From Sphingopyxis macrogoltabida (GTDB lineage Bacteria > Pseudomonadota > Alphaproteobacteria > Sphingomonadales > Sphingomonadaceae), in the NCBI RefSeq assembly GCF_001314325.1, contig NZ_CP009429.1, positions 4,588,501-4,652,500 on the forward strand: a DNA stretch of 64,000 nucleotides. Reading direction: 5' to 3'. The first letter of the stretch is position 1. Each line of letters opens with the position of its first letter. Shown here piece after piece: positions 32,355 to 46,664 of the stretch. Below the pieces are notes generated by a model. The model saw nothing but the letters and a program-made list of their open reading frames with translations. It made no database searches and was not told the origin of the DNA. The position numbers and the translations under genes were made by a program.

Positions 32355-34937
32355 ATGAACCTCGAAAAATTTACCGATCGCGCCAAGGGCTTTTTGCAGG
32401 CGGCGCAAACGATCGCGATCCGCATGAACCATCAGCGGATCGCGCCCGAGCATATCGCGAAAGCGCTGCTCGAAGACAATGAAGGCATGGCCGCGGGCCT
32501 GATCGCGAAGAGCGGCGGCGACGCGGCGCGCGCGGTCGCGGGCATCGACGCGTTGCTCGCCAAGGTGCCCGCGGTGTCGGGATCGGGCGCGCAGCAAACG
32601 CCCGGGCTCGACAATGACGCGGTGCGCCTGCTCGACCAGGCCGAACAGGTCGCAAGCAAGGCGGGCGACGGTTATGTGACCGTCGAACGGCTGCTGCTCG
32701 CCATGGTGCTCGCGGCGAATACGCCGGTGGGCAAGGCGTTCGCCGACGCGGGCGTCAGGGCCGACGCGCTCAACAAGGCGATCAACGATCTGCGCGGCGG
32801 GCGTACCGCCGACACCGCCTTGGCGGAAGACCGTTATGAGGCGCTCAAGAAATTCGCCCGCGACCTCACCGAAGTCGCGCGCGAGGGCAAGCTCGACCCC
32901 GTCATCGGCCGCGACGAGGAAATCCGCCGCACGATCCAGATTCTCGCGCGCCGGACCAAGAACAACCCGGTGCTGATCGGCGAAGCCGGGGTCGGCAAGA
33001 CCGCGATCGCCGAAGGCCTCGCGCTGCGCATCGTCAACGGCGACGTGCCCGACAGCCTGAAGGACCGCCGCCTGCTGTCGCTCGACATGGGCGCACTGAT
33101 CGCGGGCGCCAAATATCGCGGCGAGTTCGAGGAGCGGCTCAAGGGCGTGCTCGACGATGTGAAGGCCGCCGAGGGCGAGATCATCCTGTTCATCGACGAG
33201 ATGCACACGCTCGTCGGCGCGGGCAAGGGCGAGGGCGCGATGGACGCCTCGAACCTGCTGAAACCAGCATTGGCGCGCGGCGAGCTCCACTGCATCGGCG
33301 CGACGACGCTCGACGAATATCGCAAGCATGTCGAAAAGGACCCCGCACTCCAGCGGCGCTTCCAGCCGGTGTTCGTCGGCGAACCGACGGTCGAGGATTC
33401 GATCTCGATCCTGCGCGGCATCAAGGAGAAATATGAGCTGCACCACGGGGTGCGGATCACCGACGGCGCGATCGTCGCCGCCGCGACGCTGTCGAACCGT
33501 TATATCTCCGACCGTTTCCTGCCCGACAAGGCGATCGACCTGATGGACGAGGCGGCGAGCCGCATCCGTATGGAAGTCGAATCGAAGCCCGAGGAGATCG
33601 AGGGCCTCGACCGCCGGATCATCCAGATGAAGATCGAGGAAGCCGCGCTCGGCAAGGAGAGCGACGCGGCGTCGAAGGACCGGCTCGCGACCTTGCAGTC
33701 CGAACTCGCCAATCTCGAGCAGCAGTCGGCGGGGCTCACCCAGAAATGGCATGCCGAGAAGGACAAGATCCACGCCGAGGCCAAGATCAAGGAAGAGCTC
33801 GACGCGGCGCGTTCGGCGCTCGACCAGGCGCAGCGCGCGGGCGATCTCGCGAAGGCCGGCGAGCTGTCCTACGGCACCATCCCCGGGCTCGAAAAGCAGC
33901 TCGAAGCGGCGCAGGCCGCGGCGGGCAATGCGATGCTCCGCGAGGAAGTTACCGCCGACGACATCGCCGCGGTGGTCAGCAAATGGACCGGCATCCCCGT
34001 CGACCGGATGATGGAAGGCGAGCGCGAGAAACTGCTCGGCATGGAAGCGACGCTCGAAAAGCGCGTGATCGGACAGGATGAGGCGGTGCGCGCCGTCTCG
34101 ACTGCGGTCCGCCGCGCGCGCGCCGGCCTGCAGGACCCCAACCGCCCGCTCGGCAGCTTCCTGTTCCTCGGCCCCACCGGTGTCGGCAAGACCGAGCTCA
34201 CCAAGGCACTCGCGCGATTCCTGTTCGACGACGACAATGCGATGGTCCGCATCGACATGTCCGAATTCATGGAAAAGCACAGCGTCGCGCGGCTCGTCGG
34301 CGCACCGCCGGGCTATGTCGGCTATGAAGAGGGCGGCACGCTCACCGAAGCAGTGCGCCGCCGGCCCTATCAGGTCGTGCTGTTCGACGAGGTCGAAAAG
34401 GCGCATCAGGACGTGTTCAACATCCTGCTGCAGGTGCTCGACGACGGGCGCCTCACCGACGGGCAGGGCCGCACGGTCGACTTCACCAACACGCTGATCA
34501 TCCTGACGTCGAACCTCGGCAGTCAGGCGATCGCGGCGCTCCCCGACGACGCACCGGTCGAGCAGGCCGAGCCTGCGGTGATGGAAGTCGTGCGGGCGCA
34601 TTTCCGCCCCGAGTTCCTGAACCGGCTCGACGAGATCGTGCTCTTCAACCGCCTCGCGCAGCAGCATATGGGCGGCATCGTCGACATCCAGGTCGCGCGG
34701 GTCCAGAAACTGCTGACCGACCGCAAGGTGACGCTCGACCTCACCGATGCCGCGCGCGCGTGGCTCGGGCGCGTCGGTTACGATCCCGTCTATGGCGCCC
34801 GGCCGCTCAAGCGCGCGGTGCAGAAATATCTGCAGGACCCGCTCGCCGACTTGATCCTGAAGGGCGAGGTCAAGGACGGGTCGACGATCAAGGTCGACGA
34901 AGGCGACGGGGCGCTGATCCTGACACCGGCCGGCTGA
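32355..34937 (+). CDS. clpB: ATP-dependent chaperone ClpB (disaggregase)
   Basis: 860 residues, full length. The Clp N-domain (1-150) includes the [10 protein letters not shown] motif. AAA-1 has Walker A G209-EAGVGKT and Walker [11 protein letters not shown]. The coiled-coil M domain spans about 400-520 (Lys/Glu/Ala heptads around [14 protein letters not shown]). AAA-2 has G606-PTGVGKT. It threads aggregated proteins with DnaK in the cytosol. ATG 32355 follows AAAGGGG. A heat-shock type promoter lies just upstream and a strong terminator follows. Confidence 0.98.
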
Positions 34938-35011: not shown

Positions 35012-38000
35012 TCAGAACACCTTGGCCTTGATCCCGACGTAGAACGACCGGCCGACCGCGCTGATCGGATAGCCGACCGCGCCGTCGTCGGGCTTGCGGT
35101 CGAAGAGGTTGTTCACGCCGCCGTAGAACTGGAACTTGTCCGCGACGTCATACGCCATGTACAGTTCATGCTCCCACTTCTGGCGGTACCAGATATATTG
35201 CGCGGGCGCATAATCGGGGTTCGCCGCCTGCTCCTCGCGGGTAACGCGGCGGGTCTTGTCCCACCAGTCGATGCCATAGTTGAGCGTGAACGGGCCCTTG
35301 TGCCAGGTCAGGTCGAAGCTGGCGCTGAACTTGGGCGCCGGATAGACCGAACTGTCGCGCTCGTTTTCGGGATCCGCACCGAGCGACGGCACAAAGCTCA
35401 GCTTGTCGAGATAATTGCCGACGAGCCGCAGGTCGAGATTGCCCGCCTTGTCGCCGAGGTCGATCCGGTAACGGATGTTCGCATCGAGACCCGCGGTACG
35501 GAACGAAGCGACATTCTGGGGAATGACCTTGTAATTGTTGACGAAGCCGGTCGTGCCGCTGCGGCTGATCAGCGCGCAATAGTCGTTGTCGAGCGACGGC
35601 TGATCGTAGCAGAGGTCGACGATATCCTGCGCGGTCGAGTACTGGATCGCCTTGGTCAGCTTGATGTCATACCAGTCGAAGCTCATCGTCAGGCCGGGCA
35701 GGAAGCTCGGGTTGAGCACCACGCCGGCCGTCCAGGTCTTCGCCTTTTCGGCGCTGAGGTCGGGGTTGCCGCCCTGCTGGCCCAGCAAGCTGCTGTTCCC
35801 CGGCGACGCACCATTGTTCGCCGGGTCGAACAGCGGATCGCCGTCGCCGTCGACGGCATCGATGTCGATACCCAGCGCATCCAGCGCCGCACGGCAATTG
35901 GCCGCGCGCGGCGCCTTGCCTTCGGCGATCCGGTCGGGACCGCACGGATCGTCGATGAATTCGAACGACCCGTTGAGCGGCGAGAACAGCTCGGTGATGT
36001 TCGGCGCGCGCACCGATTTCGAATAGGTGCCGCGGAAGGCGATGTCGCGCACGGGCGCATAGGTGCCGTTGACGTTCCACGTCGTCGTCGTGCCGACCGT
36101 CGAATAGTCGGAGACGCGGATCGCGCCGCCGACCGACAGGTCCTTCGCAAAGGCCATGTCGGCGAGGATCGGCAGGCGGATTTCGCCATAGACCTCCTTG
36201 ACGTCGAAGCTGCCGCGTTCGACCTGGGCCGCGCTATTGTCGATCAGGTCGCCGCCCTGGCTATATTCGGACGGCCGCGAATAGCTCGTTTCCTTGCGAT
36301 ATTCGGCACCGAGGGCAAAGCCGACCGGGCCGCCCGGCAGCTCGAAAAAGGCGCCCGTGTCGCCCGACAGCGCGAAGCTGGCGACATATTGGCGCAGGCG
36401 CGAATAGTCCGAATGGTCGGCGAGGACGAAGGCCAGCGCCTCCTTCGACGGCGACCCATTGCCGAGGATATTGAGCGGCACGCACTCACCCGGCCGGAAC
36501 GTCTTCGGCGGACCGTTGAACACCACCGGATTGCCGAAGCTCGACCCGAAGATGTCGGTTTCGCCGGGCAGGTTGATGCGGCAGGTGATGTTGCCGTCGG
36601 CGTCGTACACCGAATCGAGCGCCGCATAATAGCGGTCGGCGATCCGGTCGCCATAGTTGGTCGAGCGCTGCGTCGCCTGACCGAACACGAACGACGCGTC
36701 GTAGTTGAGGTGCGGCGTCAGTTCGCCCGTCGCGCTGATCACGCCGCGCCACAGTTCGCGGTCGAGTTCGTAACGGCGCTGGCCGAAGTCGAAATTGTCG
36801 CGGCTGAACAGCGCGCCCTCCGACGCCAGATCCTCGCCGAAACGCTCGATCAGGAACGCGTTGTCGGGTGCGAGCTCGGTATAGAGGTCATAGGTCGGCT
36901 GCGATTCGGTCCACGCCTTCGACTTCACATATTTGACCTCGGCGTGCAGCTTGAACGCCGGATCGAACTCGTAACTCGCCATCGCGTTGGCGATGTGGCG
37001 CCGGGTATAGGGCGTGTAGTCGCCATAATAGGTCTCGCGCGGCGTGCTGTCGCCGCCGATGGTGAAGGCGGTGCCGGGAACATAGCTGCCGAGGTCATAG
37101 GGTTTGCCCTCGCCGGTGAATTCGGGAACGCCGTCGCCGGTGAAATCGATCGCACCGCCCATCGAGCTGTCGGCCCAGCGCAGGCCGGTCAGCAGGATGC
37201 GGTCGGGCACGTTCGGATCGTCATCGGCCGAATTGGGATCGCCATCGTTCGGATTGCGCACGAGCGCATAGGACGGGCCGGTGCGCCCATAGTTCAGGCG
37301 CTGCTTCTGGCTAAACCGATCGGTTTCGTTGAATTCATAGGCGACCGTGACGTTGCCGCGGCCGTCGGCGAAATTCTTGCCCGCGGTCGCCGCGATATAG
37401 CGCTCGCCGGCGTCGCCGCGCTGCGAAATGCTGTTCTGGGCGCGCAGGCTCAGGCCCTCGAAATCCTTTTTGAGGATGAAGTTCACGACGCCCGAAACAC
37501 CGTCGGCGCCATAGATCGCCGACACCCCGCCGGTCAGCACGTCGACGCGCTCGACGAGATCGGTCGGGATCGTGTTGATATCGACCGCGGCCGTCCCGGG
37601 ATAGCCCGCGACATGGCGCTTGCCGTCGACGAGGACGAGCGTCCGGCTGGTGCCGAGGTTGCGCAGGTTGAGCAGATTGACGCCGACCGATTGCGCATTC
37701 AGCAGGTTCGAACCGCCGGTGTTGATGTTGCGCTGCGAACCGAGCAGGGCGGGGTTGTCCGACAGGAATTCGGTCAGGTTGGTCTGGCCCGACTGCTGGA
37801 TCGTCGTCGAATCGACGGTGACCACCGGGTTGGGATTGCTGAAATCGGGACGCGCGATACGCGTCCCGGTGACGACGATGGCATCGCCTTCTTCGGCGGC
37901 TGTTTCATCGGCGGGCGCATCCTGCGCGATCGCCGGAACCGCGATGAGCGCAATGCCCATAGCCAGAGGGGCGGCGCTAAGGCGAAGGCGCCGCGCATCG

Positions 38001-38014
38001 ATCAGTTTTTTCAC
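35012..38014 (-). CDS. TonB-dependent outer-membrane receptor (second)
   Basis: 1000 residues from the GTG at 38014 (VKKLIDARRL), which has AAGGAA 8 bases upstream and aligns with the MKKTQLS start of the receptor at 46664. An in-frame ATG at 38041 would add a non-signal extension. After the signal (AIA-Q) comes DAIVVTGTRIARP, a TonB-box-like motif, then the plug (NLRNLGTSRTLVLVDGKR, LTGGVSAIYGADGVSGVVNF) and barrel ending SFYVGIKAKVF with the canonical terminal Phe. Its nearest relative in the window is the receptor at 43611-46664. The upstream region shares a spaced element with that gene. Substrate unknown. Confidence 0.94.
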   Translation of the reverse strand: MKKLIDARRLRLSAAPLAMGIALIAVPAIAQDAPADETAAEEGDAIVVTGTRIARPDFSNPNPVVTVDSTTIQQSGQTNLTEFLSDNPALLGSQRNINTGGSNLLNAQSVGVNLLNLRNLGTSRTLVLVDGKRHVAGYPGTAAVDINTIPTDLVERVDVLTGGVSAIYGADGVSGVVNFILKKDFEGLSLRAQNSISQRGDAGERYIAATAGKNFADGRGNVTVAYEFNETDRFSQKQRLNYGRTGPSYALVRNPNDGDPNSADDDPNVPDRILLTGLRWADSSMGGAIDFTGDGVPEFTGEGKPYDLGSYVPGTAFTIGGDSTPRETYYGDYTPYTRRHIANAMASYEFDPAFKLHAEVKYVKSKAWTESQPTYDLYTELAPDNAFLIERFGEDLASEGALFSRDNFDFGQRRYELDRELWRGVISATGELTPHLNYDASFVFGQATQRSTNYGDRIADRYYAALDSVYDADGNITCRINLPGETDIFGSSFGNPVVFNGPPKTFRPGECVPLNILGNGSPSKEALAFVLADHSDYSRLRQYVASFALSGDTGAFFELPGGPVGFALGAEYRKETSYSRPSEYSQGGDLIDNSAAQVERGSFDVKEVYGEIRLPILADMAFAKDLSVGGAIRVSDYSTVGTTTTWNVNGTYAPVRDIAFRGTYSKSVRAPNITELFSPLNGSFEFIDDPCGPDRIAEGKAPRAANCRAALDALGIDIDAVDGDGDPLFDPANNGASPGNSSLLGQQGGNPDLSAEKAKTWTAGVVLNPSFLPGLTMSFDWYDIKLTKAIQYSTAQDIVDLCYDQPSLDNDYCALISRSGTTGFVNNYKVIPQNVASFRTAGLDANIRYRIDLGDKAGNLDLRLVGNYLDKLSFVPSLGADPENERDSSVYPAPKFSASFDLTWHKGPFTLNYGIDWWDKTRRVTREEQAANPDYAPAQYIWYRQKWEHELYMAYDVADKFQFYGGVNNLFDRKPDDGAVGYPISAVGRSFYVGIKAKVF

Positions 38015-38118
38015 GTTTGAAGTTCCTTGCTCGTGGATCATAGCGGCATGCGCCGTGGGGGTGTTGGTACGCCACGAGCACACCCCCATGCAGTGGTGCT
38101 TGGCAACCCCCGCATCAG

Positions 38119-38180
38119 GAGTAAAGAAAATCTCCAATCATTTCTGTCATTTCTGGCGCCACTGTGGCCATGATGCAACA
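38119..38180 (-). promoter_or_regulatory. Upstream element shared with the 46 kb receptor gene
   Basis: Read on the minus strand this 62-base stretch begins TGTTGCA and ends ATTTTCTTTACTC. The stretch at 46773-46834 aligns with it without gaps: TGTTGCA, a central CACA, and TTTCTTTACTC or TTCCTTTACTC occupy identical positions. The end nearest the gene is 105 bases from the GTG here and 109 from the GTG there. It is probably a promoter plus regulator site. No consensus for a known regulator is recognised. Confidence 0.55.
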
Positions 38181-38248
38181 AGCGGGCACGATGCCGGGGC
38201 CGACCGTCTCAGCCTGTCCCGGACGCGGCACGGCTCGCCGGTGAAGGG

Positions 38249-38845
38249 TCAGGCACCGACCGCCTCGCCGATCCATGCGGGGTCCGCCTGATCGGCATCA
38301 TAATATTCGAAGATCAGGTGGATGCGCGAGTCGGCACCGCGATTGACCACCGCATGCATGTCCATATTGTTCACCTCGGCCGCCTCGCCTTCGGCGATAT
38401 GGTGCGTCTCGCCGCCGAGGCGGAACAGCACCTCGTCGTTGGTCTGGATCGGTACGTGGATCTTGTGCGGCCATTTGGCTGCCGGGTTGGCATCGCGGTG
38501 CGGCTGGATGATGCCGCCGGCGGGCATGCGCGCGAGCATGACGCGCGGGAAGACCCCGTTGGTATAGCCATAATCGGCGGTCGCGGCGCGCAGCACCGGC
38601 ATGATCGTCGGCTCCCAGGCTTCCCAGATCGGCCGCGCGAAGGAGGCGCGCCAGTCGCGCACGTCCGACACGAAGCGGAAGACGATATGCGCGGTCGCGT
38701 CGAGCGCCTCGAAACGGTTCGGCTTGTCGGCATTTTCCGCCTGCCAAATGTCTTCGGGAATCGCGAGCACCGCGGCCTTCAGCGCCGCGATATCGACTGC
38801 GCCGAGCCGGCGGATGCTCTTGGTCTTGCGAGGGTTCGGATACAT
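38249..38845 (-). CDS. Aspartyl/asparaginyl beta-hydroxylase-fold oxygenase (short)
   Basis: 198 residues from ATG 38845, with GAGG upstream; a TTG at 38872 is possible. It has the 2-oxoglutarate/Fe(II) double-stranded beta-helix of the Asp/Asn hydroxylase family: iron ligands His116 and Asp118 (QPHRDANP), distal His164 (MDMHAVVNRG) and Arg174 for oxoglutarate. It hydroxylates a protein, peptide or small-molecule acidic residue; the target is not known. It is the last gene of a four-gene minus-strand run (exported small protein, longer hydroxylase, sulfotransferase, this) with gaps of 4, 3 and 23 bases. Confidence 0.85.
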   Translation of the reverse strand: MYPNPRKTKSIRRLGAVDIAALKAAVLAIPEDIWQAENADKPNRFEALDATAHIVFRFVSDVRDWRASFARPIWEAWEPTIMPVLRAATADYGYTNGVFPRVMLARMPAGGIIQPHRDANPAAKWPHKIHVPIQTNDEVLFRLGGETHHIAEGEAAEVNNMDMHAVVNRGADSRIHLIFEYYDADQADPAWIGEAVGA

Positions 38846-38868
38846 GGCGCGCGCCTCAATTTTACCGG

Positions 38869-39492
38869 TCAATATTCATAGCCGAAGAGGTCGAGGTCGC
38901 GGGCATAGATTTTCGCAACACCGTCTATCAGTTCCTGATTATAATAGTCGCGATAGGCGCCGCGCTGCGAACGGTTGGCATGATCGAGCGGCGTCGACGC
39001 GATGCCGATGCGGGCGCAGATCGCATCATAGGATTGCTGCATCTCCTCCACCTTGCCCAGCATATCGGCGAGCAGCGTTCCATCGCGGTCGGTCAGGAAC
39101 AGATGTTGGGGACGAAAGATGATGTGCTGATGCGGCGGCGCGACAAACAGGAAATGGCGCATCACGCGTTGCGGGTCGCGCGCGAACGTCCCCTCGCGAC
39201 TGGTCGCAAAAGCGCAATAGGAGACGAAGCGGTCGAACGGATTGCGGACGAAAGCGAATTTCAGATAGTCCGAGAACATCTCCTCGCCGAGGAAAGGGCG
39301 CACTTCGGCAAGGCTGATATGCCCGTGGCCGAGCCGCGCGAGTTCGGGAATCGGGAACTTCTTTTCGACGAACAGGCGGGCCTGCTCGATATCGTCGGGG
39401 CCCATATGCTCGCGCAGGCCATGCCGCACCGAATGCGTTCCGGTTTTCGGAATCGCGGCGAAAATGAAGCGATGCTTGTACGAAACGATCAT
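38869..39492 (-). CDS. Sulfotransferase family 2-like protein
   Basis: 207 residues. The PAPS 5'-phosphosulfate loop is IPKTGTHSVR (14-23) and the 3'-phosphate motif is FVRNPFDRFVSYCAF with Arg83 and Ser91, matching the sulfotransferase family 2 group (carbohydrate or glycolipid acting in characterised members). No signal or membrane helix, so cytoplasmic. It starts 3 bases after the stop of the longer hydroxylase gene, implying coupled translation. Acceptor unknown; PAPS-making genes are not in the window. Confidence 0.85.
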   Translation of the reverse strand: MIVSYKHRFIFAAIPKTGTHSVRHGLREHMGPDDIEQARLFVEKKFPIPELARLGHGHISLAEVRPFLGEEMFSDYLKFAFVRNPFDRFVSYCAFATSREGTFARDPQRVMRHFLFVAPPHQHIIFRPQHLFLTDRDGTLLADMLGKVEEMQQSYDAICARIGIASTPLDHANRSQRGAYRDYYNQELIDGVAKIYARDLDLFGYEY

Positions 39493-39495
39493 CGG

Positions 39496-40449
39496 TCAGG
39501 CAGCAGCAGCGACCGGCGATGCCGCGTCGGGCGCGGCGACCATGAACACCAGTTCGGCAAGCGCGCGGTCGAAGGGGACATTATTCGGGAGCAGCATACG
39601 CTGCGCCTCGAGCCGCTGGAGGTCGCGCTGGACGTCGCCGATCAGCCGCCGATAGGCCGGAAGCCCCGCCGCCGCGGTACCATATTGCGCCCATAGCGCA
39701 CCCCAGGCGTTGGCGAACTGCTCGAGCCGCGCCGCGATCGCGCCGCGCGCTTCGGTATCGGCGCATTGCGCGAGCAGAAAATCGATATGGCAGCGCACTT
39801 CCCACACCGACATCACCGCGGGCAGGTTGACCTGTTCATAGGCAAGCGGCACCGGCGCGACCGATCCCGGCGCGATCCGCTGGACCGGCTGCGCATCGCG
39901 GCCCATGGTTTTGGCTTCGGCAATCAGCCCCCACAGTTTTTCGCCGCCGACGGTATCGAGCACCAGATGGACGCGCTTCTGGTCGCCGTCGTTGCGGACA
40001 TTGTGCAGGCAGAAGCTGTCGAACAGCCAGCATTCGCCCGGCGCCATATGGACGGTCTCGCGATCGCAGCTGAAGGCAACGCCGGGGTTGGTGACCACCG
40101 GGATGTGGATGCGGATATGGGTGCGCCAGTAATAGCCGACGTCGACATGTTCGGGCACCACCGCCCCCGGCGCCAGCCCCATCAACCGGCTACGCCCCCA
40201 CACCGCGCCGAGATCGGCAAGGATTTCGGTGATATAGGGGCATTGGCGCAGCGCTTCGGTCGGCGCCATCGGGCCGCTGAACCCGTTCGACACTTGTCCC
40301 GCCGGCGTGATCAGCGGCACCGCATCGTTGCCGGGCAGGCGGCCGGGGTGCGGCAACCACGCAGCCGCAGGCAGGGCCGCAACCTCGGCGGCGAGCGTTT
40401 CCGCACAATATTGCCGCGCCAGCTTGACCAGCGGCATTCCCAGCTTCAT
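39496..40449 (-). CDS. Aspartyl/asparaginyl beta-hydroxylase-like oxygenase (long)
   Basis: 317 residues. The N-terminal 2OG/Fe(II) domain shows His101-x-Asp103 (PEHVDVGYYWRTHIRIHIPV), distal His149 (CLHNVRND) and Arg159 (KRVHLVLD). Residues 170-317 form a helical extension not needed for the fold and without recognisable family. It may bind the substrate. The ATG at 40449 lies 4 bases after the stop of the 86-residue exported protein gene. It belongs to the same operon as the sulfotransferase and the shorter hydroxylase. Confidence 0.85.
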   Translation of the reverse strand: MKLGMPLVKLARQYCAETLAAEVAALPAAAWLPHPGRLPGNDAVPLITPAGQVSNGFSGPMAPTEALRQCPYITEILADLGAVWGRSRLMGLAPGAVVPEHVDVGYYWRTHIRIHIPVVTNPGVAFSCDRETVHMAPGECWLFDSFCLHNVRNDGDQKRVHLVLDTVGGEKLWGLIAEAKTMGRDAQPVQRIAPGSVAPVPLAYEQVNLPAVMSVWEVRCHIDFLLAQCADTEARGAIAARLEQFANAWGALWAQYGTAAAGLPAYRRLIGDVQRDLQRLEAQRMLLPNNVPFDRALAELVFMVAAPDAASPVAAAA

Positions 40450-40453
40450 CGGG

Positions 40454-40714
40454 TCACTCGCGCCGGATCTCGATCTGCGGGCGGTCGATCAGTTCGCGCG
40501 CATTGCGCTTCTGCTCCTCCTCCAGCGCTTCCCATTGTCCCGCGGTCTTGCAGATCTGGCTATAAAAACGCGTACCCGTCCGCTGGGTGCGCTTGCAGAC
40601 CATCTTGTCCTTGGCATCGACAGCCGCTTTGTCGGTCGAAGGGCTGGCGAACGCGGGGGTTACGGGAAGCAGCAAGGAGGCAGCGGCGAGGCTCAACAGA
40701 TGAATTCCGCGCAT
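40454..40714 (-). CDS. Small exported protein with a paired-cysteine motif
   Basis: 86 residues from ATG 40714. A signal peptide ends at AFA (residue 23). The mature part has MVC40, then TGTRFYSQIC55, then QWEALEEEQKRNARE. The C-x14-C spacing followed by an aromatic and a charged helix resembles a small sphingomonad exported-protein family of unknown function. It heads the hydroxylase/sulfotransferase operon, so it could be the modified partner or simply a passenger. Longer frame to 40780 has no signal at its start. Confidence 0.65.
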   Translation of the reverse strand: MRGIHLLSLAAASLLLPVTPAFASPSTDKAAVDAKDKMVCKRTQRTGTRFYSQICKTAGQWEALEEEQKRNARELIDRPQIEIRRE

Positions 40715-40830
40715 GACAGTCCAACTCCAAAGCAATATCGCTATGCAAGGAATATATTCGCTTGCCCCCGTCACTGTCAATTCGACCCCGCCGGAGACCG
40801 GGCGGGAAAACCCTTGGGAACCAAAGGATC

Positions 40831-41556
40831 ATGGCCTTGGATTTTCGGCTTTCGGACCGGATCGACCACGATGCGCTGCGGCGGCAGTTCCTGCGCAACG
40901 GGCGCGTGGAAATCGAGGGCTTGCTGGCGGAGGACCAAGCCGAAACCTTGCGGCATTACCTGCTCGCGCGCACCGACTGGAAACTCGTCATGAACGCGGG
41001 CGACAAGGTCTATGAGATGACCCGCGAAGCCTATGTAGCGATGGACCCCGCCCAGCGCGGCCAACTCGACCAGCATATCGTGAACGCCGGCCGCGAGGGC
41101 TTCCAGTATCGGTACGAGGCCATTCGCGTTCCCGATGCCGGCCGCACCGCCGATCCGTCCGACCTGCTGACCGGCTTTGTCGCCTTTCTCTCCTCGCCCG
41201 CCGTGCTGGCAATGCTCGGCGCCATTCTCGGCTGCAAGGATGATGCCGCCTTCGCCGACGGTCAGGCGACGAGCTATGGCGCAGGGCACTTCCTGACCCG
41301 CCACGACGACGATGTAGCGGGCAAGCACCGCCGTGCCGCCTATGTCTATTCGCTGGCGCCGGCGTGGCGCGCCGAATGGGGCGGCCTGCTGATGTTCCAC
41401 GGCGACGACGGCAATATCGAGGAAGCCTTTGCCCCCCGCATGGATGCGCTACGGCTCTTCTCGGTACCGCAACAGCATAGCGTCAGCTATGTCACGCCGT
41501 TCGCGCCCGAACCGCGGCTGTCGATCACCGGCTGGCTGCGCGCGAACGGGCCCTAG
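40831..41556 (+). CDS. 2-oxoglutarate/Fe(II) oxygenase, prolyl-hydroxylase-like
   Basis: 241 residues from ATG 40831. The facial triad is His158-D-Asp160 (FLTRHDDD) and His216 (PQQHSVSYV), with Arg229 (RLSITGWLR) to hold oxoglutarate. This arrangement is that of the Tpa1/Ofd1-like and prolyl 4-hydroxylase-like oxygenases. It is the only plus-strand gene of the island, divergent from the four-gene minus run and overlapping the convergent TPR-sulfotransferase stop by 4 bases. Target unknown; with the two Asp/Asn hydroxylase relatives it makes three different oxygenases in one island. Confidence 0.85.
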   Translation: MALDFRLSDRIDHDALRRQFLRNGRVEIEGLLAEDQAETLRHYLLARTDWKLVMNAGDKVYEMTREAYVAMDPAQRGQLDQHIVNAGREGFQYRYEAIRVPDAGRTADPSDLLTGFVAFLSSPAVLAMLGAILGCKDDAAFADGQATSYGAGHFLTRHDDDVAGKHRRAAYVYSLAPAWRAEWGGLLMFHGDDGNIEEAFAPRMDALRLFSVPQQHSVSYVTPFAPEPRLSITGWLRANGP

Positions 41557-43541
41557 TCGAGGCTGTAACCGTAACGCTCGACCCACGGCGCGAGAATCGG
41601 CAGGATTTCGCGCATCTGGGGTTCGTAGCGCTTCCAGCGCCCGCTCGCCGACGAATAGATCGGTTCGGTAACCTGCGCATAGCTGGGGGTGCGGATGAAG
41701 CCGCGCTCGACCGCCGTTTTCTGATGGTCGAGGACGCCCTCTTCCCAGTCGAGCCCGAGGAAATGGAAAAGCGGCCGCGTCGCCGCCGCGACATCGGCGA
41801 TCATCGCTTCATAGCGCAGCATATGAACGTCGATCGGGAACAGGGCCCGGCAATTTTCCCAATAATGGAAAATGCTGTCGTAGGTGCGGCTGGCGTTGGC
41901 GAGATCGAGAAAGCTCGCCATCGCCTCGGTCGGCTTGAAATTCTGGATATAGCAGCTGAGCACGACGTCGCACGGATGCCGCATCGCGAGAATGAACTTC
42001 GCGTCGGGAAACAGGCGATGGATAAGCGGGACGCGGATCATCGACAGGGGGTTTTTATCGATAACGAGCGCGCCGGCCGGGGGCGGCGCGCGCTTGTCGA
42101 GCTCGGCGAAATAGCGGCCCCGCAGATCGGCGACGGCGGCCGCATCGAGCGTGCGGATGTGGTCGAGGTCGCCCAGCGATTGCCCCAGTTCCTCGATGAT
42201 CGGCAGCTCTTCGAGCATATGGATGCGGCTGTGCCCCATCAGGATCGTATCGAGCAAGGTGGTGCCTGACCGCGGGAAACCCACCAGAAAAGCCGGCGAA
42301 GCGCGGTCCGAAGCGGGCGGCACCTCGGCCCATCCGGCGAACCATGCCTGCGTCGTCTGGCGATCGACGGCAGCGATGGTGCGCTGATAGGCGCTGCGAT
42401 CGACGCCGATCCCCATCGGGCTTTGCGCCTGCGCCCGGTTCATTTCATCGTAGAAATAGAGTGCCTCTTCCACGTGACCCAGCCGGTCGGCAAGCTGTCC
42501 CGCGAATTGCATCCGGATCGTCGGGTTGACGCTCGACCCGTGCAGGTCGCGGATCAGGGCGAGCGCCGCTTCACGGTCGCCATCGCGCGACAGCATCAGG
42601 GCACGAAGATAATCGATATCGTCGCCCTTAACCTCCGCCGCGGTGGCATCGGCCAGTACGGCGCGCAGCTCGTCGAGCCGGTTGGCCTTTTCGAGCAGGA
42701 TGCCGAGGTTGAGATAGGCTGGGGCGAAGCGCCGGTCGGCCTTGATCGCAAAGCGCAATGCCCGCTCGGCTTGATCGTTGTTCGACAGGTCGAGAAAGGC
42801 AATCGCGATCGCGAGGAATATCTGCGGGTTCGATGGATCGAGGCGCGCCGCCGAGCCAAGCGCGCGTAGCGCCGGTTCGGCATGGTCGATGCTGGTCAGA
42901 ACCCGTCCGAGCTCAAGCAGCGGCGCAGCGTCCTGCGGGGCGAGGAGCACTGCCTTTTCGAGCATCAGGCAGGCATCTTCATAGCGGTCCATCGAAATCA
43001 GGACGCGGCCGATATTGGTGTGGACGAGCGAGGATTTCGGATCGATCTGCCGCGCTTCCTGAAAGGCCTGCAACGCGCCCTCCAGATCGCCGCCCTCGTG
43101 ACGCGCATTGCCAAGGTTGTTCCACGCAACGAAATTCTTCGGATCGTCCGAAACCAGCTTTTCATAGGCCCAGCCCGCTTCGGTCGCGCGCCCCTGCGCC
43201 TTCAGTATCTGCGCCTGCATCGCCTGCAAGTCGGCCGACCCTGCGAGGTCGCCTTCGGCGCACACGCGCGCAGCCTCGTCGGTCTCACCCAGATCGAGCA
43301 GCGCGCGCGTGAGGTTGATCCGGTTGTCGCTGGTGTCGGCGCCGTTGGCGATCGCCCGGCGGAGATAATCGACTCCTTGCCGCAACGCGCCGGTCTGGCA
43401 CGAAACGACGCCGAGTAGCTGGAGCACGGTGGGATTGGTCGGCTGGGCGCGGAGCGCCACCTCGCCCTGGGCTTTCGCAGTCGCCAAGTCGCCCTTGGCA
43501 TAGGCCGCATAAGCGGCGCGCAATCTGTCAGTCACGGTCAT
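41553..43541 (-). CDS. TPR-repeat sulfotransferase fusion
   Basis: 662 residues. Residues 1-390 are about ten tetratricopeptide repeats (clear units at 141-165 and 276-300). Residues about 415-662 are a sulfotransferase domain with G421-FPRSGTTLLD as the phosphosulfate loop, RHPCDVVLS at 521-529 as the 3'-phosphate site, and LEELP and IDKNP in between. The TPR part probably recruits a protein acceptor, by analogy with TPR-bearing modifying enzymes and tyrosine-sulfation systems, but this is inference. No signal peptide. It follows the receptor gene at 43611-46664, separated by a terminator hairpin. Confidence 0.92.
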   Translation of the reverse strand: MTVTDRLRAAYAAYAKGDLATAKAQGEVALRAQPTNPTVLQLLGVVSCQTGALRQGVDYLRRAIANGADTSDNRINLTRALLDLGETDEAARVCAEGDLAGSADLQAMQAQILKAQGRATEAGWAYEKLVSDDPKNFVAWNNLGNARHEGGDLEGALQAFQEARQIDPKSSLVHTNIGRVLISMDRYEDACLMLEKAVLLAPQDAAPLLELGRVLTSIDHAEPALRALGSAARLDPSNPQIFLAIAIAFLDLSNNDQAERALRFAIKADRRFAPAYLNLGILLEKANRLDELRAVLADATAAEVKGDDIDYLRALMLSRDGDREAALALIRDLHGSSVNPTIRMQFAGQLADRLGHVEEALYFYDEMNRAQAQSPMGIGVDRSAYQRTIAAVDRQTTQAWFAGWAEVPPASDRASPAFLVGFPRSGTTLLDTILMGHSRIHMLEELPIIEELGQSLGDLDHIRTLDAAAVADLRGRYFAELDKRAPPPAGALVIDKNPLSMIRVPLIHRLFPDAKFILAMRHPCDVVLSCYIQNFKPTEAMASFLDLANASRTYDSIFHYWENCRALFPIDVHMLRYEAMIADVAAATRPLFHFLGLDWEEGVLDHQKTAVERGFIRTPSYAQVTEPIYSSASGRWKRYEPQMREILPILAPWVERYGYSLD

Positions 43542-43550
43542 CGACGCTAT

Positions 43551-43588
43551 CTATAAAAAAAGAGGGCGGGACACCAGTCCCGCCCTCT
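43551..43588 (-). terminator. Terminator between the third receptor and the TPR-sulfotransferase
   Basis: An 11-bp perfect stem (GAGGGCGGGAC, 43562-43572, with 43577-43587) and ACCA loop. On the minus strand it is followed by a run of seven T (AAAAAAA at 43555-43561). It should stop or attenuate transcription of the receptor gene before the sulfotransferase gene, which starts at 43541. Confidence 0.9.
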
Positions 43589-43610
43589 CCTTTGGTTCGC
43601 TTGCCGAAGC

Positions 43611-46600
43611 TTAGAACTTCAGGCGTGCCGACACATAAGCGCGGCGACCGATGACGTCGTACAGCGACGGATCGGTGCCCGACTGCACGTTCGGCGCGTA
43701 CGTCGGCGGCTGCTTGTCGAACGCGTTGTTCACACCGATGCGGAAGGTCATCGCATCGACCTCGGCCTGGAGCGCGAAGTCGAAGTAGAAGACGCTGCCC
43801 GGACCGGTGAACTCTTCGCCGACATACTGGACCGCAGCGCGGTTCTTCATCCCGTCGGTGAAGCGGACGCGGGTGTCGAAGCTCAGCTCACGCGTGATGT
43901 TGAGCTTGCTGTTGAGCGTCGCCCTCCAGCGCGGGAAGCTCGTTCCCAGACCGGCGCCGAAGTAGGATGCGGTGCCCGCATAGTCCGTCTTCAGCCCACC
44001 CAGACCGACATTCTTGAAGTCGATCAGGTAGTTGAGGGCCAGGTTGAGGTTCAGCGCGCTGTCTTCGTTGATGAACGGCGTCGGCAGGCGATAGCCCAGC
44101 TGAACGTCGACACCCGAAGTCTTGACCGAACCCTGGTTCACGTTCTGGAAGTAGCCAGTGACCGGGTCACCGCCAAGTTCTTCCGGCAGGAAGATCGCGG
44201 CGATGTTGTTGTTCGACCGGGCGAGGCCAGCACAATAAGGGCTGTTTTCGTCCAGATCCGGGTTGATGTTGTTGTAGCCATAGCACGACGCGATGATTTC
44301 GTTCACGTCGGGAGCGAAGATCGTGTCCTTGATCTTGATGTTGTAATAGTCGATCGAGGCGACGAACGGACCCGATTGGAACACCGCACCGACGGTGAAG
44401 GTGTCCGACTTTTCAGGCTTCAGATTCTCGTTGCCCGTCGTCGTGATGAACGCCTGTGCGCCCGGCGTCGCGACGAACGAGTCGATCGTGCCGGCGCTGA
44501 CGCCCGTGTCGAGGCAGAGCTGACGCGCTTCGGCGCCACCGTTCTGACGGAACTGGCTGTTCACCGAGCAAGGGTCGAAAATCTGCGGGAAGCCGCCGCC
44601 GCCCGAGAAGAGTTCGCCGAAGTTCGGAGCACGAACCGAGTGCTGATAGCTGGCACGCAGACGCACCTGGTCGATCGGCGACCAGCTGATCGTACCACCG
44701 TAGGTCCAGTCACCCGACGAACCGCGGCCGCTGGTGTTCGGATCGCCATCGTCGATCAGGTTGCGGAACTTGCTCTTCGAGTGACGCGCGGTGAGCGACA
44801 GCTCGAGCGTGTCCATGATCGGCGCGCGAAGTTCGCCGAAGAAGTCGAGGAACTCGTTGGTGCCAAGGTCGGGCGTGCTGGTGTTGAAACCGGCGATCGG
44901 ACCGAAGAGAGCGCCCGGGTCGAACGCATATTTGAACTTGCGCTGTTCGACACCGAACACGACGCCCAGCGGGCCGCCCGGCAGATCGGCGAGTTCACCC
45001 GAGACATAGGCCTGGGCAACCTTCTGCGTGAACTTGGTTTGCGTCACGCCCGTTTCCGACACGAAGTCGACGCATTCCTGCGAGAGCGGCTGGATACCGA
45101 ACGGGTTGAAGCCGCCGGCGCAAAGGCTGTCGCCGCCATCGGCCGCTTCAAGCAGTTGCTGTACCTTCTGCACGTTGACGTTGCCCGTCGCGCGCTGGTC
45201 GATCGTCGTCTCGCCCCAGCTGTAATAGGCTTCGTAGCGCCAACCCGGAGCGAACTCGCCACGCAGGCCCGCGAGGCCCTGGATGACTTCGTTCTCGAGC
45301 TGCTGTTCGCGCAAGCCGGTGCCCAGGAAGCGGTAGCCAATGCGAATGCCTTCATCGGCGCCCGAGCCCGCAAGCAACGGATCATCCAGAACGCGCGAGT
45401 TCAGGAGCGACCGCAGGTCGTCCGAGACAAACGGGTTGGTCACCGGAACCACGAAACCGGTGATGCGCTGACCCACTTCGACGAGCGGCGAACGTGCGTT
45501 GAGCGCCGAGGCATCGCTGGTCGGATCGACGATGCCGGTGCTGACCGGCGTCGGCGCGAGCGCCGTTGCCGACTTGTAGTTGGTGTAACCGCCCTGCACG
45601 AAGACTTCGAACGCCGGGTTGATTTCGTACTTCGCCGTCAGGAACGCCGATTTGCGCTCGAGCGGCAGTACGAGGATGTTCACGATGTCGAAGTTGTAGC
45701 TGTAGAAGTCAGGGAAGAAGTTCAGGTTCGGGTTCGCCGGCGAGGCGAGGTCGTACCGGAAGTTCGACACATCGACCGGGCTGTTGAACGTACCGACGCC
45801 GAACAGCGAACCGTCCGAGTTAAACCCGAGCTGGTTAGCCTGCGGGGTCTGGCCCGGCGCCACGCCGTAGCTGGCGAACAGGGCGTCGATCGACGCCTGG
45901 CTGATCGGGTTGGTCGCGCTGTTCGAGAAGGAGCCCGTCGGGAACGAGCTGGTCGTCGAGGTCGCCTGCGACGCGAAGTCGCGCTGCGCCTTGATCAGGC
46001 CCTGGCGCTTCGAATATTCGGCCGAGAAGGCGATGTTACCACGGCCGTCGGCAAAGTTGCCGCCGATGATGCCGCTGAACTGATATTCGCGCGCGTCGGT
46101 CTTCGGAATCGAGTTCGAATAGTTGACGCGAAGGTCGATACCTTCGAAATTGTCCTTGAGGATCAGGTTGACGACACCCGCGATGGCGTCGGCGCCGTAA
46201 GCCGCGCCAGCGCCGCCGGTCACGATTTCGATGCGCTCGATCAGGCCCTGCGGGATCGTGTTAAGATCGACCGTCTGGTCCGATGCCGACACCATCGGAC
46301 GGCGGCCGTTGATCAGGACGAGGTTACGGTTCGAACCGAGACCGCGCAGGTTGATGTTCGACTGGCCGTTGTTGCCGGGGTTGTTCGACGTGGTGGTGCC
46401 GGCCGGATTGACCTGCGGCAGCGTGTTCAGGAAGGTGTCGAGCGTGACGTCGGCGTTTTCGACCGTCGCTTCGCCGGTGACAACCGCAACCGGGCTGTTC
46501 GATTCGAGGTTCGGACGCGCGATGCGCGAACCGGTGACGACGATCGTCGCTTCGCCTTCGTCGGCGGGCGCGTCCTGCGCCTGGACGGGAGCCGAAACCA

Positions 46601-46664
46601 TCGCGACGCCCAAGACGAGGGGCGCGGCGCTCAGTTTCAGCATGGAAAGTTGGGTTTTCTTCAC
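43611..46664 (-). CDS. TonB-dependent outer-membrane receptor (third)
   Basis: 1017 residues from GTG 46664 (M KKTQLSMLKL), with AAGGGA 7 bases upstream. Signal peptide ends at VQA-Q. TonB-box-like ATIVVTGSRIARP is followed by the plug (NLRGLGSNRNLVLINGRR, TGGAGAAYGADAIAGVVNL) and a barrel ending AYVSARLKF. The opening segment (LSAAPL, DAPADE, IVVTG-RIARP) is near-identical in layout to the receptor at 35012-38014. Codon usage in this gene is more G/A-balanced than its neighbours, as expected of a highly expressed protein. Substrate unknown; context links it to the sulfotransferase island. Confidence 0.94.
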   Translation of the reverse strand: MKKTQLSMLKLSAAPLVLGVAMVSAPVQAQDAPADEGEATIVVTGSRIARPNLESNSPVAVVTGEATVENADVTLDTFLNTLPQVNPAGTTTSNNPGNNGQSNINLRGLGSNRNLVLINGRRPMVSASDQTVDLNTIPQGLIERIEIVTGGAGAAYGADAIAGVVNLILKDNFEGIDLRVNYSNSIPKTDAREYQFSGIIGGNFADGRGNIAFSAEYSKRQGLIKAQRDFASQATSTTSSFPTGSFSNSATNPISQASIDALFASYGVAPGQTPQANQLGFNSDGSLFGVGTFNSPVDVSNFRYDLASPANPNLNFFPDFYSYNFDIVNILVLPLERKSAFLTAKYEINPAFEVFVQGGYTNYKSATALAPTPVSTGIVDPTSDASALNARSPLVEVGQRITGFVVPVTNPFVSDDLRSLLNSRVLDDPLLAGSGADEGIRIGYRFLGTGLREQQLENEVIQGLAGLRGEFAPGWRYEAYYSWGETTIDQRATGNVNVQKVQQLLEAADGGDSLCAGGFNPFGIQPLSQECVDFVSETGVTQTKFTQKVAQAYVSGELADLPGGPLGVVFGVEQRKFKYAFDPGALFGPIAGFNTSTPDLGTNEFLDFFGELRAPIMDTLELSLTARHSKSKFRNLIDDGDPNTSGRGSSGDWTYGGTISWSPIDQVRLRASYQHSVRAPNFGELFSGGGGFPQIFDPCSVNSQFRQNGGAEARQLCLDTGVSAGTIDSFVATPGAQAFITTTGNENLKPEKSDTFTVGAVFQSGPFVASIDYYNIKIKDTIFAPDVNEIIASCYGYNNINPDLDENSPYCAGLARSNNNIAAIFLPEELGGDPVTGYFQNVNQGSVKTSGVDVQLGYRLPTPFINEDSALNLNLALNYLIDFKNVGLGGLKTDYAGTASYFGAGLGTSFPRWRATLNSKLNITRELSFDTRVRFTDGMKNRAAVQYVGEEFTGPGSVFYFDFALQAEVDAMTFRIGVNNAFDKQPPTYAPNVQSGTDPSLYDVIGRRAYVSARLKF

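Follow-up and report, generated by a model that had tools for sequence, protein, structure and literature searches.

Methanobactin operons combine a ribosomal peptide with a sulfotransferase held to sulfonate threonine and, in some cases, with a TonB-dependent transporter (PMC3621798), and the 2-oxoglutarate (2OG) hydroxylase CanE acts on the linear ribosomal precursor of the lasso peptide canucin A (PMC9266682). The subject of the present analysis is an island of eight genes in a 64,000-nucleotide stretch of DNA from Sphingopyxis macrogoltabida (NCBI RefSeq assembly GCF_001314325.1, contig NZ_CP009429.1, positions 4,588,501 to 4,652,500; here called the window), in which three putative 2OG-Fe(II) oxygenases, two sulfotransferases and a small exported protein (SMALL) lie between TonB-dependent receptors (TBDRs). 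For these enzymes we propose, with about even confidence, a cytoplasmic relay of hydroxylation and sulfation on an exported polypeptide of a TonB-dependent uptake system; its most likely target would be the adjacent receptor, with SMALL as a second or additional one. The genes, listed here by their position in the window, were all confirmed as open reading frames (ORFs) at the coordinates given by an earlier note made from the sequence alone, and its family assignments hold as well: every island protein except SMALL, which lacks a Pfam match, scores above the curated cut-off for its expected family.

TBDR1, 35012-38137, minus strand: TonB-dependent receptor (PF00593 and PF07715), an optional part of the island; the true start may be further in.
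BH1, 38249-38845, minus strand: small PF05118 oxygenase (44.1 bits), with its ATG at 38845.
ST2, 38869-39492, minus strand: sulfotransferase of the 3'-phosphoadenosine-5'-phosphosulfate (PAPS) type (PF03567, 52 bits).
BH2, 39496-40449, minus strand: oxygenase of the PF05118 fold (71.8 bits) with a C-terminal helical part.
SMALL, 40454-40714, minus strand: exported 86-residue protein with two Cys residues; signal peptide recognised by eye, no Pfam match.
P4H, 40831-41556, plus strand: prolyl-hydroxylase-like 2OG-Fe(II) oxygenase (PF13661/PF13640).
TPRST, 41553-43541, minus strand: sulfotransferase fused to tetratricopeptide repeats (TPRs), with the repeats and PF13469 (116.8 bits).
TBDR2, 43611-46664, minus strand: TonB-dependent receptor (PF00593 and PF07715) with a signal peptide recognised by eye and a start probably at 46643; the conserved receptor of the island.

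The island is like the methanobactin operons (MbnS, MbnT) in the logic of a peptide, a sulfotransferase and a TonB-dependent transporter, but differs in its enzymes: MbnS belongs to PF00685, whereas the island encodes PF13469 (TPR-fused) and PF03567 sulfotransferases and three 2OG hydroxylases. No match to DUF692 (MbnB-type) was found in the eight island proteins, which sets them apart from a methanobactin operon, and SMALL differs from the methanobactin peptide by its signal-peptide-like start and folded core. With human AspH, BH1 and BH2 share the common fold, the PF05118 family and the conserved iron and 2OG residues; TPR-PF05118 proteins are present in related loci, but neither BH1 nor BH2 has a TPR match, and the model of BH2 appears structurally nearer to proline hydroxylases. 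AspH resides in the lumen of the endoplasmic reticulum, the island enzymes presumably in the bacterial cytoplasm. TPRST resembles the protein-tyrosine sulfotransferases TPST1/2 in its sulfotransferase domain and O-GlcNAc transferase (OGT) in its repeats, and differs from both in this domain combination, in its presumed cytoplasmic location and in its coupling to hydroxylases. In the plant PSY and RGF peptides, as in the bacterial RaxX-RaxST system, a secreted peptide carries tyrosine sulfate, in plants also hydroxyproline; SMALL differs in having no tyrosine invariant among its 33 sequences compared.

Coupling of hydroxylases and sulfotransferases

Judged by their sequences, hydroxylase and sulfotransferase are a coupled pair forming one functional unit. 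Relatives of BH2 were collected from named proteobacterial records (the best 80 of 180 from one query, some of them on short contigs), and 28 of the 80 carry BH2 and a sulfotransferase in one ORF, "fused" here meaning the same stop-to-stop frame; related species among the counted loci are not independent events. In all 11 of these fusions that were checked with Pfam (L168 and ten more), PF05118 is followed by PF13469. Two enzymes fused in one protein are a classical sign of a shared pathway. Fused or separate, the two mostly stay close: among loci with at least 3 kb of DNA on both sides of BH2, 57 of 60 contain a sulfotransferase within 3 kb, in 55 cases fused or within 500 bp, and among the 45 that extend 9 kb or more to either side the count is 44, compared with 3 of 90 control windows placed 6-9 kb from BH2 (sulfotransferases, TBDRs and SMALL were called in all loci with our own profiles, built from a few sequences each). 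BH1 is present in 17 of the 80 loci, all 17 with ST2. Co-occurrence in relatives, which the earlier note had named beforehand as the test that could refute its proposal, therefore holds and reaches beyond what the note had suggested, hydroxylase and sulfotransferase being fused or adjacent in most of them.

One fusion carries a third domain: a single 1062-aa frame (L184:10001-13189) contains DUF4915 after PF05118 and PF13469. Two flanking genes encode proteins of about 845 aa that look exported and could be its targets; the one that was scanned gave no Pfam match.

The residues expected for catalysis are in place, as had been claimed, being invariant in the homologues of BH2 (52 sequences) and P4H (5) and recognised by eye in ST2, TPRST and BH1. 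Both PF05118 proteins exceed the family cut-off of 22.6 bits (BH1 44.1, BH2 71.8). H101, D103, H149 and R159 are the invariant positions of BH2, presumably the iron and 2OG residues by analogy, and BH1 shows an HxD...H...R motif. The BH2 model (pLDDT 95) has as its top fold matches proline cis-4-hydroxylase, proline 3-hydroxylase, a nucleoside-antibiotic hydroxylase and AspH. The designation "Asp/Asn beta-hydroxylase" is thus right as to the fold, but the nearest solved relatives of BH2 are free-proline cis-4- and 3-hydroxylases; since AspH is also among the matches, the hydroxylated residue may be Asp, Asn or Pro. P4H, with H158, D160, H216 and R229 invariant, weakly matches the structures of OGFOD1 (5.6e-5), the Pseudomonas putida P4H (4iw3, 0.0078) and TPA1 (0.016). 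ST2 contains a PKTGTHS loop and a VRNPFDR.VS motif; its search against solved structures returned no relative at E up to 1. The repeats of TPRST match designed TPRs and OGT (3e-28) among solved chains and its sulfotransferase part is nearest to protein-tyrosine sulfotransferases 1 and 2 (2.2e-12 to 3e-10), so by domain (PF13469, TPST matches) it is protein-tyrosine sulfotransferase-like in sequence. The closest solved relatives of TPRST (TPST, OGT) and P4H (OGFOD1, TPA1, the P. putida P4H) are enzymes which we take to act on proteins, and this speaks for the relay.

The same structural comparisons bear on the idea that the enzymes modify an envelope lipid or a small molecule, such as lipid A, an ornithine lipid or a polyol that would first be hydroxylated and afterwards sulfated, and that the association with receptors is ecological. 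Small molecules are the substrates of the solved relatives closest to BH2, and the model of the lipid A hydroxylase LpxO matches BH2 weakly (22.7 bits versus a cut-off of 500). We nevertheless consider this unlikely: TPRs are fused to sulfotransferases and, in related loci, to hydroxylases, the sulfotransferase part of TPRST lies nearest to protein-tyrosine sulfotransferases, and no lipid pathway genes were recognised by eye among the neighbours listed, most of which carry no further annotation.

The receptor link and the proposed relay

A TBDR lies within 1.5 kb of TPRST in 18 of 20 sampled genomes and within 5 kb in 19 of 20 (one high-scoring TPR-type match per genome, hand-picked, from 20 of the 38 genomes with matches). 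All five PF13469 matches in the genome of the window are found within 5 kb of a Plug match. Of the 45 BH2 loci that extend 9 kb or more to either side, 25 have a TBDR no farther than 4 kb from BH2; of 16 further loci with P4H, 9 have one within 5 kb of that gene. Together, the fusion or adjacency of hydroxylase and sulfotransferase and the neighbourhood of TPRST and TBDR make a shared polypeptide target a well-grounded inference. This part of the earlier proposal of a shared modified target stands.

The two receptors are not equivalent. TBDR2 and the block of enzymes and SMALL are conserved, TBDR1 is optional: orthologues of TBDR2 (72-86% identical) are present in all six other islands of the same type that were compared (G114, G370 and four Sphingopyxis records), while a relative of TBDR1 (50%) was found in only two of the six (L117, L118), the island of G114 lacking it altogether. 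The enclosure by two receptors, correctly described for the window, is therefore a local feature, and the two-receptor sandwich was rejected as a functional unit. That the receptors are related is true at the level of Pfam, both being TBDRs, but they are only about 27% identical. Upstream of TBDR2, an alignment revealed a stretch conserved in the window and four Sphingopyxis records, to which no regulator could be assigned.

Short intergenic gaps suggest two operons. On the minus strand TBDR2 is followed by TPRST (gap of 69 bp), and separately SMALL, as the first gene, is followed by BH2 (4 bp), ST2 (3 bp), BH1 (23 bp) and TBDR1; P4H, on the plus strand, is divergent from SMALL and convergent with TPRST, whose end it overlaps. 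The island is more than a chance assembly: within the 5.75 Mb genome PF05118 matches BH1 and BH2 and nothing else, and the block recurs across four genera. Its order TBDR-TPRST-P4H-SMALL-BH2-ST2-BH1 (type A) is found in records of Sphingopyxis, Sphingorhabdus, Rhizorhabdus and Sphingomonas, with local rearrangement and with some contigs too short to show the receptor. Type B (TBDR-ST2-BH1-TPRST-BH2) occurs in Brevundimonas, Asticcacaulis, one Rhizobiales genome and some sphingomonads, and type C (TBDR-TPRST-TPR-hydroxylase-BH2) in Steroidobacter, Hydrocarboniphaga and other gammaproteobacteria, with a 2OG oxygenase in between in both loci read gene by gene; several type C loci also contain SMALL. 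In loci of Shewanella and Colwellia the order is sulfotransferase-BH2-TPRST, with no TBDR match nearby. Distribution within the family is patchy, given that no BH2 match at 1e-12 was obtained in any of the ten congeners examined; a strong relative (E < 1e-100) is present in 12 of 397 Sphingomonadaceae genomes, including that of the window and G089, where it belongs to a lasso-like cluster.

2OG and PAPS are cytoplasmic, and none of the island enzymes has a signal peptide recognisable by eye, which is why we place the relay in the cytoplasm. There, BH2, BH1 and P4H would hydroxylate a polypeptide and ST2 and TPRST would sulfate the same polypeptide before export. BH2 and its partner sulfotransferase would act in sequence on one substrate, and perhaps the sulfate would be placed on the same new hydroxyl group. 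The TPR superhelix of TPRST would hold the polypeptide unfolded, and the modified product would be exported by Sec and work with the adjacent TonB-dependent uptake system, possibly with an effect on uptake. As the target, the adjacent receptor (TBDR2 in the window) seems most likely, SMALL coming second or in addition; a ligand that enters through the receptors is another possible target. The receptor is favoured by the type B operons: in those read gene by gene (L171, L192, L174) no small exported gene was found inside the operon, two small exported ORFs of L174 lying downstream of it.

Several observations weigh against the relay. The nearest relatives of BH2 with a characterised activity use free proline or a nucleoside antibiotic as substrate rather than a protein, and no receptor residue can be named as the site of modification. 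TBDRs are abundant (111 Plug matches in the genome of the window), so proximity over several kb is weak evidence alone and mainly tight adjacency counts. A TBDR is missing from the 5 kb around P4H in seven of the 16 further loci, loci of Shewanella, Colwellia and Thalassotalea combine sulfotransferases and BH2 with no TBDR match in the DNA covered (L153, L154, L157, L159, L164-L166, L172), and three BH2 loci (L126, L130, L158) lack a sulfotransferase within 3 kb.

Further observations concern the genes around receptors and sulfotransferases (here and below, the lasso, clpB, UrcA and CysD/N names of neighbours were given by eye unless Pfam is named). In L055:4788-13311, in the genome of the window, a PF01507 match and CysD/CysN-like genes precede a PF13469 sulfotransferase and a TBDR; this sulfate-activation locus is a possible source of PAPS and a further possible case of sulfation genes linked to a receptor. 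A UrcA-like small exported protein, traced with a one-sequence profile, adjoins TPRST in L215, L216, L217, L221, L230, L036 and L174 and may represent a second family of small partners besides SMALL. TBDR1 is adjoined by clpB (window 32355-34937), whose flank looks like a hot spot: differing modules of receptors, hydroxylases and sulfotransferases are found there in several sphingomonads (the window itself, L033, L034, L042, L195, L199, L203, L204, L245). A function in anti-phage defence was likewise considered and is unsupported: when six island proteins were scanned with PADLOC, P4H matched only a generic 2OG domain (49.7 bits), the TPR region of TPRST matched PrimPol weakly (21.1 bits), and no other match appeared.

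The small exported protein

A search for homologues of SMALL gave 31 proteins at E <= 0.001 among about 5.8 billion, that of the window included. Nine positions are invariant in 33 sequences (C40, K41, T46, G47, R49, C55, W61, E66, E74). R78-P79 is invariant in the 30 closest sequences and nearly so in all 33, position 77 alternating between D and N, and the tails that begin with this (D/N)RPQ differ among homologues, with N, P and Y abundant in one type. AlphaFold predicts a beta hairpin and a helix (residues 38-76, mostly pLDDT > 90) with a looser C-terminal tail from (D/N)-R-P, and a fold search with this model gave no solved match at E <= 0.001.

These features could mark SMALL as the dedicated substrate, a peptide of the ribosomally synthesised and post-translationally modified (RiPP-like) kind or a modified exported miniprotein, the tail of which would be decorated by BH2, BH1, P4H and the sulfotransferases before Sec export; the mature form would then serve the receptor, for instance as a peptide that binds metal or acts as a signal and is re-imported via TBDR2. 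The D or N before the conserved R78-P79 and the variable tails suit such a role, as does the place of SMALL at the head of its operon, 4 bp before BH2; it is single in the window, duplicated in G114 and present as three tandem copies immediately ahead of BH2 in G370. The linkage to hydroxylases favours SMALL as the target in islands of the window's type: among the matches listed, 13 of 29 copies have a hydroxylase match no farther than 5 kb away, compared with 0.135 expected under random placement, several of them adjoining TPR-hydroxylases of about 400 aa and receptors, some also clpB. This count starts from 56 listed SMALL matches, 27 of which fall in genomes without a listed hydroxylase, and its hydroxylases come from the BH2 search, not from a full PF05118 search. 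One more listed SMALL match, in G117, is not among the 56; G117 has no listed hydroxylase, and the 13 of 29 stays the same. SMALL is also present in all nine P4H-bearing BH2 loci, and in L209, L210 and L214, loci chosen for SMALL, it lies between TBDR and TPRST.

The distribution beyond these islands fits less well, and on balance we regard SMALL as the dedicated substrate as possible but less likely than the relay proposed above. It was found in 13 of the 80 BH2 loci, some of which are on short contigs, leaving 67 that show none, and in no type B operon on the profile maps. The tail motif is lost in the island homologues of G114, L199 and L034, and the conserved core, folded in the model, is unlike a short core peptide. 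None of 16 further P4H loci contains SMALL within 5 kb, these being the first 16 places after five island-type ones had been set aside (G370, G274, G000, G057, G114), four of which (G057 being the exception) have a SMALL gene nearby; a general partnership of SMALL with P4H is not borne out by this count. The SMALL profile matches 173 of 397 genomes at E <= 0.001, mostly weakly, and SMALL-like genes without any enzyme match exist (L211, L212, L213).

At L212:9393-10412 (G229), three SMALL-like genes stand in tandem, and the surrounding 20 kb contain no hydroxylase or sulfotransferase match.

Lasso-type clusters and wider significance

Relatives of the island enzymes also seem to serve peptides elsewhere. 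BH1-like genes were detected by profile in lasso-type clusters of other genera of Sphingomonadaceae, and the island shares BH1 and BH2 relatives and sulfotransferases with one cluster in particular. This lasso-like cluster (L037:4653-14413, G089) combines profile matches to PqqD, Asn synthase and two HPr-kinase-like genes with a precursor-like ORF, a 2OG oxygenase, BH1- and BH2-like hydroxylases and two sulfotransferases, and is predicted to yield a hydroxylated and sulfated ribosomal peptide. The genome of the window has four lasso-type loci of its own (L049, L050, L051, L052), each of them containing short ORFs that resemble precursors, with a Plug match no more than about 6.5 kb from its PF13471 match. 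A second, different peptide-modification-like cluster stands beside a receptor at L056:5237-9125 of the same genome, with a small ORF, a radical SAM gene (PF04055), further genes and a TBDR. In published work, one comparative-genomics table lists sulfotransferase, Asp beta-hydroxylase, PqqD and lasso B2 clusters with neighbouring numbers, uninterpreted in the part available (PMC10040529); a term search of the main texts of two lasso reviews found no occurrence of sulfotransferase, sulfation or sulfat-.

It is conceivable on these grounds that the island enzymes tailor a lasso peptide, or a ribosomal peptide of another kind, whose genes lie elsewhere in the genome and which is imported or exported through the receptors, and the linear precursor on which the lasso hydroxylase CanE acts would be a fitting precedent. 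The four PF13471 places, however, lie outside the window and show no BH or sulfotransferase profile match beside them; neither the 21 kb around the island nor the 80 BH2 loci yielded a match to the Asn synthase or PqqD profiles, and what the islands retain is receptor and SMALL, not a lasso precursor. Lasso tailoring was accordingly rejected as the leading explanation despite the shared enzyme set of L037, and we hold it to be quite improbable.

Extended beyond the window, the receptor-directed relay leads to a broader, more tentative suggestion: a widespread alpha- and gammaproteobacterial system in which hydroxylase and sulfotransferase, often as one bifunctional protein, would introduce a new hydroxyl group into outer-membrane receptors or their small exported partners, sulfate it before export and thereby perhaps tune receptor binding or the use of receptors by phages and toxins. 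The literature searched (with few subscription journals and no dedicated preprint collection) contained no description of such a system and no role for TPR-sulfotransferases or PF05118 genes in this setting. Both gene groups are frequent in sphingomonads, and the conserved neighbourhood provides a handle on them. Thanks to the enzyme fusions, a single purified protein would suffice to test the idea directly. If it is true, hydroxylation and sulfation of receptors or peptides would be an added layer in nutrient uptake, phage adsorption and toxin entry, one that is currently missed by genome annotation.

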